Assembly (NCBI GenBank): GCA_017305665.1
Contig: JAFKKH010000025.1
Location: forward strand, 124,001-188,000
Reading direction: 5' to 3'
DNA length: 64,000 bases
Source: Hyphomicrobiales bacterium
GTDB lineage: Bacteria > Pseudomonadota > Alphaproteobacteria > Rhizobiales > Xanthobacteraceae
The first letter of the stretch is position 1, and each line of letters begins with the position of its first letter. This document shows, piece after piece, positions 27,388-29,705 of this stretch. The notes below the pieces were generated by a model. That model made no database searches. It saw only the letters and a list, made by a program, of their open reading frames with translations, and had not been told where the DNA came from. Both the position numbers and the translations under genes were made by a program.

Positions 27388-27462
27388 GATGCTCTCCATT
27401 TGCCGATGTCACGGTGCCGATTCATGGTTAATATTTGATTGACGACGATCCGGAGCCTGACG

Positions 27463-28059
27463 ATGCCCCCTGCCGCCATTGCCATACTCGCCCTCGCCAT
27501 CGGCTATCTGTTCGGCTCCATTCCCTTTGGCATGATCCTGACGCGGATGGCCGGAACGCAGGATCTGCGCTCGATCGGTTCCGGCAGCATCGGCACCACC
27601 AACGTGCTGCGCACCGGACGCAAGGATCTGGCCGCCGCGACGCTGATCGGTGACATGCTGAAAGGCACCGTCGCCGTGCTGATCACAGGATTAGCGTGGG
27701 GACCGAGTGCTGCGATGCTGGCTGCCTTGGGCGCTTTCATCGGACACCTCTTCCCGGTGTGGCTGAAATTCCGCGGCGGCAAGGGTGTCGCCACCTACAT
27801 CGGCGTGCTGCTCGGGCTGTTCTGGCCGGCGGCGCTGATCTTCTGTGCGATCTGGCTGATCGTCGCATTGACCACGCGCTATTCATCGCTGTCGGCGTTG
27901 ATTGCGAGTCTTGTCGCGCCGCTGGTTCTGTGGTGGCTCGGCCAACCGCAGCTCGCGACGCTGTTCGCGGTGCTGACGCTGCTGTTATGGTTCGCGCACC
28001 GCGAAAACATCCGCCGCCTTGTCGGAGGCCGCGAAAGCAAGATCGGCGCGAAGGCGTAA
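27463..28059 (+). CDS. plsY: Glycerol-3-phosphate acyltransferase PlsY
   Basis: Inner-membrane enzyme that moves the acyl group from acyl-phosphate to glycerol-3-phosphate, the first step of phospholipid synthesis. The 198 residues contain about five membrane spans and the family motifs: [50 protein letters not shown], and [10 protein letters not shown] near the end. The ATG at 27463 has GGAG 8 nt upstream; an upstream TTG (27439) is less likely. Next on the strand is dprA, as in many alphaproteobacteria, but two small minus-strand genes sit between. Confidence 0.95.
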
Positions 28060-28067
28060 GCTGACGG

Positions 28068-28244
28068 CTAACGGGTAATGCTGCTCACGTCGCCGTGGAC
28101 ATCAAGCGTCACGGTGAAGCCGAATACCTTGAACTGGCCGCCGCGGGCATCGATCACATCGGGATTATCGACCGGCGACCATTTCATGCCACCGCTCGCC
28201 ATCTCGATTTCGCCAGGCTGCAATTCACGAATATTGCTGGTCAT
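28068..28244 (-). CDS. Short peptide with double-glycine leader, copy B
   Basis: A 58-residue peptide paralogous to the upstream 28259-28441 gene. The first 19 residues, MTSNIRELQPGEIEMASGG, match the pattern of double-glycine leaders (L..xEI..xSGG) used by class II bacteriocins and microcins. The 39-residue rest shares MKW, DVIDARGG and a (T/V)xDxxGxxSSI ending with copy A, but has no Cys. GGAGAA precedes the ATG by 7 nt. It starts 14 bp after copy A and converges with plsY. No C39 peptidase/ABC exporter is in the window. Confidence 0.75.
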   Translation of the reverse strand: MTSNIRELQPGEIEMASGGMKWSPVDNPDVIDARGGQFKVFGFTVTLDVHGDVSSITR

Positions 28245-28258
28245 GCCGGTTCTCCAGA

Positions 28259-28441
28259 TCAAGCCGGGCTGATGCTGCTGCACTTGCCGTTGATGTCGAA
28301 CGTCATCGTCACGCCCCAGACGGTCAGGTAACCGCCGCGCGCGTCGATCACGTCCTTGCTCACATAGTTGTGGTCCCATTTCATGCCGCCGCTGACGGCG
28401 TGAATCTCTTTGTCGCTCAGTGCACGAATATCCGTGTTCAT
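28259..28441 (-). CDS. Short peptide with double-glycine leader, copy A
   Basis: A 60-residue peptide. Residues 1-19, MNTDIRALSDKEIHAVSGG, form a textbook double-glycine leader (LSxxEIxxVSGG). The 41-residue remainder begins MKWDHNY, contains DVIDARGG, a hydrophobic beta-like stretch (YLTVWGVTMTFDI) and one Cys. AGGAGA lies 6 nt before the ATG. With copy B it forms a two-gene unit read away from dprA; the 142-bp divergent gap should hold its promoter. It may be a bacteriocin-like or signalling peptide; no function is established. Confidence 0.78.
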   Translation of the reverse strand: MNTDIRALSDKEIHAVSGGMKWDHNYVSKDVIDARGGYLTVWGVTMTFDINGKCSSISPA

Positions 28442-28583
28442 CGGGGTCTCCTGTCAGAGTGAACATATCGCGCCGATAGTGCCGAGCCGATCCGGCGCGG
28501 TCCGTGACCCGCATCACGCGCTCACGCCACCAAACCGGTTGTGACCCGCGCCGACTTGCGCGACACTTCCATCGGGGTGGGGC

Positions 28584-29705
28584 ATGGACGTCCGAAGTTC
28601 AGGCACTTTGCGGCTGACCGACACGCAGCGGATCGACTGGCTGCGGCTGATCCGCAGCGACAATGTCGGACCGCGCACCTTCCGGACCTTGGTCAATCAT
28701 TTCGGTGGCGCGCGGGAAGCATTGACCCGCCTGCCCGAGCTGGCGCGGCGCGGTGGCGCCGCGCGTCCGGGCCGGATTTATAGTGAAGCCGATGCCGAGA
28801 ACGAATTAGCGGCAGCGCTCCGCATCGGCGCCAGTCTGCTGGCGCCGGGCGAAGCAGGTTATCCGCCCCGCCTCGCCACCATCGACGACGCCCCGCCCCT
28901 GCTCGGCGTCCGCGGCAAGTTCGATGTCATGATGCGTCCCATGATCGCGATCGTCGGTTCGCGCAACGCCTCCGGTGCAGGGCACAAGTTCGCGCAGACG
29001 CTGGCCCGCGATCTCGGCGAGGCCGGCTTTGTCGTGGTGTCAGGCCTTGCGCGCGGCATCGACCAAGCGGCGCATCGGGCGAGTCTGGCAAGCAGCACGG
29101 TCGCGGTGCTGGCCGGCGGCCACGACCGCATCTATCCCGCCGAACACGAAGACCTGCTGGCGGCAATGCTGGAGACCGGCGGCGCCATTTCCGAAATGCC
29201 GATGGGGCATGTGCCCCGCGCCCGGGATTTTCCGCGTCGTAATCGTCTGATTTCCGGTGTCGCGCTCGGCGTCGTCGTGGTCGAGGCCGCGCATCGTTCC
29301 GGTTCGCTGATCACCGCGCGCATCGCCGCCGAACAGGGCCGCGAGGTGTTTGCCGTTCCGGGTTCGCCGCTCGATCCACGTGCCGCCGGCACCAACGATC
29401 TCATCAAACAAGGCGCGACGCTGACGACGGACGCCGCCGACGTCATCAATGCGGTACGCCCCATCATGGGGCGACCGGTCGAGCTACCCATCGAGGAACC
29501 CGACGACATCATGCCGGATGCCGGCGAGCCCGATGCCGGAGATCGCACGCGTATTGTCAGTCTGCTCGGCCCGACTCCGATCGGCCTCGACGATTTGATC
29601 CGGATGGCGAACGCGCCACCATCGATCGTGCGAACCGTCCTGCTCGAACTCGAGCTTGCCGGCCGGCTCGAACGCCACGGCGGCGGGCTCGTGTCGCTGG
29701 TCTAG
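28584..29705 (+). CDS. dprA: DNA-processing protein DprA (Smf)
   Basis: Loads RecA on incoming single-stranded DNA during transformation. The 373 residues comprise an N-terminal SAM-like region ([18 protein letters not shown]), the Rossmann-type DprA core with [39 protein letters not shown] and [15 protein letters not shown], and a C-terminal winged-helix-like DML1 domain ([21 protein letters not shown]). The TAG stop codon is formed by the CTAGTGTGG of a repeat remnant (29702-29748), so the native end may have been altered. topA lies further along the same strand. Confidence 0.95.

Follow-up and report, generated by a model that had tools for sequence, protein, structure and literature searches.

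Class II microcins of the microcin V type (PCAT/CvaA-CvaB) carry a short double-glycine (GG) leader with hydrophobic residues at positions –12, –7 and –4 and are exported by a C39 ABC exporter working with an HlyD adaptor. According to the accessible part of PMC11494933, nearness to the exporter is one criterion for accepting microcin candidates, so that a dispersed set served by a trans-acting exporter would easily be missed. The Cdz system of Caulobacter (CdzABCDI), as described in the accessible part of PMC5380434, consists of glycine-zipper proteins of 84–86 aa whose genes cluster with those for the exporter and for an immunity protein. A third related arrangement is the NHLP bacteriocin system (TIGR03796/TIGR03797), and a fourth point of comparison is the Clr/CRP cyclic-nucleotide regulon of Sinorhizobium, in which many targets are controlled through a 14-bp palindromic operator with the core GTNNCNNNNGNNAC and in which double-glycine peptides go unmentioned, so far as the accessible part of PMC10127613 extends.

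The locus described here is a pair of small tandem genes in a 64,000-nucleotide stretch of a Hyphomicrobiales genome (the stretch is called the window, and its genome G000). Leader architecture and exporter type are those of class II microcins, whereas here the genes are scattered at a distance from the exporter, have no immunity gene at the locus, encode many different cores and share a CRP-like promoter. Like Cdz, the system comprises alphaproteobacterial tandem small proteins, predicted type I export and a cluster without a dedicated outer-membrane channel gene (PMC5380434, accessible part); unlike Cdz, it has no immunity gene at the locus and no glycine zipper was seen in the VIDARGG core. 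Its putative operator is likewise a 14-bp palindrome with many targets, but reads GTGA-N6-TCAC in place of the Clr core (PMC10127613, accessible part). We estimate a probability of about 0.75 that the pair encodes exported precursors, members of a CRP/FNR-type regulon of dispersed genes, that are cleaved and exported in trans by a single C39 exporter. A literature search turned up accounts of GG-peptide mining, of class II microcins and of the Cdz, NHLP and Clr systems, and in their accessible parts none describes dispersed GG peptides under a CRP-like promoter; a search for VIDARGG returned no paper. An early Gram-negative screen cited in PMC11494933 (Dirix 2004) may list some of these peptides.

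The two genes lie in the 524-base gap between plsY and dprA (Table 1). The initial annotation had described tandem genes of 60 and 58 residues with 19-residue leaders ending in SGG, similar cores sharing MKW and DVIDARGG but differing by a Cys, strong ribosome sites, and a housekeeping setting with no exporter or immunity gene nearby, and this description holds throughout: both genes are present on the minus strand, the Cys occurs in core 1 only, AGGAG and GGAGA precede the respective ATGs, and the gap contains neither an exporter nor an immunity gene and is too small for a typical immunity gene. None of the three species with peptides at this site has room for an immunity gene in the gap; one encoded at a distance is possible. 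Both leaders have GG at –2 and –1 and hydrophobic residues at –12, –7 and –4, the last being Ala in peptide 2; the positions of leader 1 were set against the leader contacts given in the accessible part of PMC6363468.

Table 1 Features of the plsY-dprA locus, numbered from the first base of the window
Feature	Position	Strand	Remarks
Peptide 1 precursor, lead gene of the tandem	28259..28441	-	60 aa
Peptide 1 leader, 19 residues, double-glycine	28385..28441	-	L-12, I-7, V-4, S-3, G-2, G-1
Peptide 1 core, 41 residues	28262..28384	-	VIDARGG; C-terminal beta strands predicted (weak model)
Peptide 2 precursor	28068..28244	-	58 aa plus stop; 14 bases downstream of peptide 1 gene
Peptide 2 leader, 19 residues, double-glycine	28188..28244	-	L-12, I-7, A-4
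Peptide 2 core, 39 residues	28071..28187	-	
AGGAG ribosome site, peptide 1	28448..28452	-	
GGAGA ribosome site, peptide 2	28251..28255	-	
GTGA-N6-TCAC palindrome, CRP/FNR-superfamily-like putative operator	28504..28517	-	First base 76 bases upstream of peptide 1 ATG
-10-like hexamer CACTAT	28476..28481	-	+36 to +41 from palindrome start; would centre the palindrome at -41.5
plsY flank	27439..28059	+	Start codon tentative
dprA flank	28584..29705	+	

Peptide 2 matches peptide 1 at E=2.5e-11 in a whole-genome search and, judged by this similarity, the pair is not a product of chance. Scans of both peptides found no Pfam or NCBIfam family covering either, and an annotated family was rejected on this ground. 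The NCBIfam scan gave no NHLP-type leader model match for either peptide, the single match of peptide 2 (E=0.15) being off target. Glycine accounts for 6/60 residues (10%) of peptide 1 and 7/58 (12%) of peptide 2, at or just below the low end of the 12–26% given for class II microcins in the accessible part of PMC11494933, which decides nothing. A weak AlphaFold model (mean pLDDT 67, pTM 0.34) suggests a leader helix and three C-terminal strands. A second GG within the core bears a vague likeness to another leader site and was dropped, position –12 being unconserved by eye. Plasmid origin was rejected, the plasmids collection containing no match, and phage origin was set aside, no relative being confirmed in viral_contigs.

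The same plsY-dprA site holds one peptide copy in each of two further species of the genus (G001 and G007; loci L005 and L006), and scanning genome_contigs returned one relative, from a MAG with the title uncultured Bradyrhizobium (L003). Of 391 family genomes searched with a profile, 13 matched, of which 11 were accepted as carrying core homologues, including a degenerate one in G360; those dropped were a regulator-like protein with a leader-like stretch (G184) and a leader followed by a stop after GG (G413). In the latter (L039, G413:C56) the stop codon comes straight after GG, and the same contig bears a canonical C39 exporter. The initial annotation had proposed weighing leader conservation against core variability, and the outcome was the reverse of that for a fast-changing bacteriocin. 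Full-length homologues in other genomes keep both leader and core, and among 13 homologues the invariant positions number 3/19 in the leader (L at –12 and the GG) and 10/41 in the core (K, V, DARGG, T, D and G; peptide 1 numbering); by this measure conservation of the core equals or exceeds that of the leader. Simple counting gave dN/dS values of 0.03–0.45 in 13 codon-aligned gene pairs of the wider peptide set, matched by similarity and including the tandem pair itself, showing purifying selection.

Beyond what the initial annotation had in view, the pair appears to be part of a dispersed, promoter-linked set. A leader-only profile found 11, 10 and 9 matches at E<=1 in the three peptide carriers of the genus, and 0–1 weak matches (E 0.014 or worse) in the other six genomes, one such match being the decayed remnant in G003 described below. 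The matches in carriers are mostly small genes with differing cores, often tandem and spread over several contigs; in G000 the set comprises 14 GG-leader-type genes, ten read from profile matches and the others added from the palindrome described below. Applied to the whole family (391 genomes), this profile, some of whose input leaders came from the very genomes under search, matched 18 at E<=0.01, and 15/18 have a canonical C39 peptidase, as do 8/8 genomes with three or more matches; G111, G158 and G174 have one match each and no canonical C39.

In G000 no peptide gene stands beside a PCAT exporter, a position counted among the criteria for class II microcins; at 3/10 core-family loci outside the genus (G258, G411 and L003) NHLM-type ABC genes adjoin. 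The other seven have no such exporter within 10 kb on each side (nine of the ten loci were fetched with 10 kb, and L003 with 5 kb, of flank on each side). The G411 locus holds further GG-leader genes, and the product of one shares 48% identity with a G000 peptide from a different core family. A cyclic-nucleotide-binding protein (L054:19237-19749; PF00027 its sole Pfam match) adjoins the exporter/peptide cluster of G411, and a 71% relative of it is encoded at the end of locus L039 in G413.

The leaders had been read initially as those of C39-peptidase exporters, with a genome search for such a transporter proposed as a check, and the search lends support to that reading; none of the outcomes that the annotation had named as refuting it was encountered. 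Peptidase_C39 matches two G000 genes, one for a canonical C39 ABC exporter on contig C3 (PF03412, E=2.3e-35) and a divergent one on C36 (E=9.4e-11); the peptides are on C15. The divergent gene was set aside as the exporter, its type (~40–50 bits) being present in 8/9 genus genomes irrespective of peptides. The canonical exporter is encoded in an operon between priA and rlpA-atpH, in which a 2Fe-2S protein gene comes first and which also encodes an HlyD adaptor. The closest relative found of this operon lies in another genus (G085), where five GG-leader genes adjoin it; its first two genes share 52% and 59% identity with their G000 counterparts, and the C39 part, cut by a contig end, shares 69% over 168 residues. 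G085 offers the strongest tie between the exporter class and the leader class. Three of the five G085 genes (L122, G085:C140) share a lysine-rich VEKCT-type core, and the five lack the palindrome. The 2Fe-2S ferredoxin-domain protein, a probable membrane protein (L008:7108-8721, G000:C3; orthologues in L027, L028 and L122), is encoded first in the exporter operons of four genomes, which belong to two genera; we know of no peptide exporter with such a protein. ABC proteins with two C39-like domains in one ~900 aa frame are also encoded at L012, L017 and L123 (G003, G001 and G374).

Alignment shows Cys, His and Asp of the catalytic site retained in the C39 domain of the G000 exporter. Six residues ahead of this Cys, at the position of the oxyanion-type Gln, Ala stands in the exporters of all three species and in the closest relative found, whereas eight other canonical C39 domains aligned have Gln there. 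Since this Gln is replaced, cleavage could be weak or absent, and the leaders might dock on the C39-like domain uncleaved, the uncut proteins being exported or staying at the membrane. We think this improbable, given that the catalytic triad is kept, that the leader GG is invariant in 13 homologues, and that the Gln of LahT is 4.3 Å away from the oxyanion, so that its role may fall to the catalytic His (PMC6363468, accessible part). As His may thus stand in for Gln, activity of the C39 exporter, and with it cleavage of the precursors, is plausible but not certain.

Exporter and peptides tend to occur together. Among nine genus genomes, C39 matches at E ~1e-35 are found in G000, G001 and G007, exactly the three peptide carriers, and 5/5 of the other testable genomes have neither a peptide at plsY-dprA nor an exporter at priA-rlpA-atpH; the ninth, G008, is too fragmented for the locus test. 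In a midpoint-rooted PriA+DprA tree, G002, G004, G005 and G006 separate from G000, G001, G003 and G007 with 100% support, and the exporter-less G003 stands beside G000 with 71% support. G003 keeps a shortened gene of another peptide of the set (L092:1501-1620), its leader and palindrome intact and most of its core missing. Because G003 sits among carriers and retains this decayed remnant, coordinated loss of the peptide set and the exporter is suggested. By this tree, the within-genus co-occurrence rests on few independent events. In the 391 family genomes, canonical C39 (E 1e-29 or better, a threshold set after seeing the gap and passed by 52/391) is present in 9/11 peptide genomes versus 43/380 others (Fisher p=3e-7), or in 10/13 with G184 and G413 kept; outside the genus the figures are 6/8 versus 43/374 (p=8e-5). 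These p-values overstate the evidence because the genomes are related. The 43 others have canonical C39 and no VIDARGG peptide, and there are two exceptions of the opposite kind, G374 with an intact peptide gene and only a divergent C39, and G360 with its degenerate copy and no C39 at 1e-12.

Could the products be ordinary cytosolic small proteins whose GG pattern is coincidental? The exporter is encoded far from the genes and export is read from sequence, but one leader type stands on different cores, the genes are present and absent together with the exporter, and a member has decayed where the exporter is gone; such an origin is very improbable, and coincidental GG motifs were rejected on leader conservation and co-occurrence. 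Export of the peptides is a well-supported prediction.

The NHLM-type genes raise the question of whether the precursors are instead NHLP-type RiPPs, their cores chemically altered before export. In the MAG (L003) the same core adjoins NHLM_micro_ABC1 (912 bits) and NHLM_micro_ABC2 (843 bits), both over their curated cut-offs, two further loci have ABC1 genes 68–70% identical, and the exporter operons of the window's genus and of G085 include a gene for a 2Fe-2S protein. Against modification, neither peptide matches an NHLP leader family, no modifying enzyme was recognised among the neighbouring genes profiled, and only one of the two window cores has a Cys. The exporter of the window's genus also differs from the NHLP type, falling below the cut-offs of the best 25 models listed (TIGR03796, 453 of 853 bits). 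Modified precursors of this kind seem rather unlikely.

Control of the set is suggested by a shared promoter pattern. The GTGA-N6-TCAC palindrome, chosen after looking at the sequences, lies upstream of 21/21 lead genes, 0/6 second-in-tandem genes and 0/3 exporter operons in three genomes; 500 Markov sets gave a mean of 0.14 and a maximum of 2 of 30, and, when every palindrome of this kind was allowed in 30 Markov sets, the highest count was 6. The leader pattern used here required an R ahead of the –12 residue, so that two G001 genes (L113) lacking a strict palindrome fell out; one gene with <200 bases upstream was omitted, and the start of L099 was placed too far upstream. Over all loci, which had been fetched for their peptides or exporters, the palindrome precedes 39/48 lead genes and 0/14 second genes (ATG starts only, ribosome-site score >= 4, duplicates removed). 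The 48 remain from 53 after removal of two window matches judged spurious by eye, which have no palindrome, and three palindrome-found genes (39/50 with the two kept); the start criteria excluded the G094 VIDARGG gene (L055), which has the palindrome. Four of the nine lead genes without it are beside the G085 exporter operon. The presence of this palindrome on lead genes and its absence from second-in-tandem genes are new.

The site starts 71–102 bases before the ATG in 41/44 cases, and an A is found at +37 from the site start in 19/20 genus sites versus 35/121 control strands at other sites; outside the genus A is at +37 in 9/16, and at +38 in six of the other seven. In the genus, the spacing of the –10-like element fits class II CRP/FNR geometry, in which the palindrome would be centred at –41.5. 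One candidate regulator is a CRP-like gene (G000:C6:41178-41372) with RESVNR in its recognition helix, which presumably resembles that of CRP.

On our favoured reading, a CRP/FNR-superfamily activator, probably cyclic-nucleotide dependent, would bind GTGA-N6-TCAC at about –41.5 and, as the promoter pattern suggests, switch on the tandem and about a dozen similar scattered genes. The common N-terminal leader would dock in the peptidase domain of a single C39 ABC exporter, encoded at another locus and acting together with an HlyD adaptor and, presumably, a channel of the TolC type. The leader would be cut after SGG, and cores of roughly 40 residues would leave the cell. Once exported, the VIDARGG core probably performs a conserved function; our guess is a signal directed at kin or host, or a task on the cell surface.

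The cores might alternatively be class II microcin- or bacteriocin-like toxins, a dispersed C39-exported antibacterial arsenal with immunity encoded elsewhere or needless. The GG leader and C39 exporter fit such toxins, as do the many different cores per genome, the glycine content of peptide 2, just inside the 12–26% of class II microcins (PMC11494933, accessible part), and one core that is Gly/Ala-rich and hydrophobic; among eight other members scanned, three have a weak, sub-threshold Bacteriocin_IIc match and four have sub-threshold NCBIfam bacteriocin or pheromone matches. On the other side, no immunity gene fits the plsY-dprA gap, core families are conserved across genera, and in this genus the genes are dispersed away from the exporter. 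A toxin function is possible but doubtful, and with a core no less conserved than the leader and no immunity gene alongside, we lean towards conserved signalling or surface peptides over a fast-evolving bacteriocin. A bolder version of the exported-precursor reading is a cyclic-nucleotide-controlled peptide 'broadcast' regulon, in which one CRP-type regulator and a promoter code, together with the trans-acting C39 exporter, would deploy a dozen or more different, dispersed peptides with conserved cores that signal to kin or host and are not toxins; we offer it tentatively. The lack of an immunity gene beside conserved cores, together with the apparent disappearance of set and exporter from one species, makes this a tractable system, which could address the role of small exported peptides and the cyclic-nucleotide control of an extracellular peptide repertoire.

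The promoter pattern provides an independent finder for dispersed exported-peptide genes, and if the broadcast regulon is real, new members should be recognisable from the promoter alone. Genome-wide, G000 has 116 GTGA-N6-TCAC sites versus 7 of the reversed pattern. Scans covered 67 distinct sites of the 116, a sample biased by including loci fetched for peptides, and 13/67 have a GG ORF on either side, versus 1.4% per strand at random positions; with a GG-type ORF close to so few of the sites, the regulon probably extends beyond the GG-leader genes. Scanning downstream of the sites recovered three GG-leader genes that had escaped the leader profile (L152, L160 and L193), as well as the doubtful L158 and a gene ending its leader in SGA (L148) that had earlier been a weak profile match.
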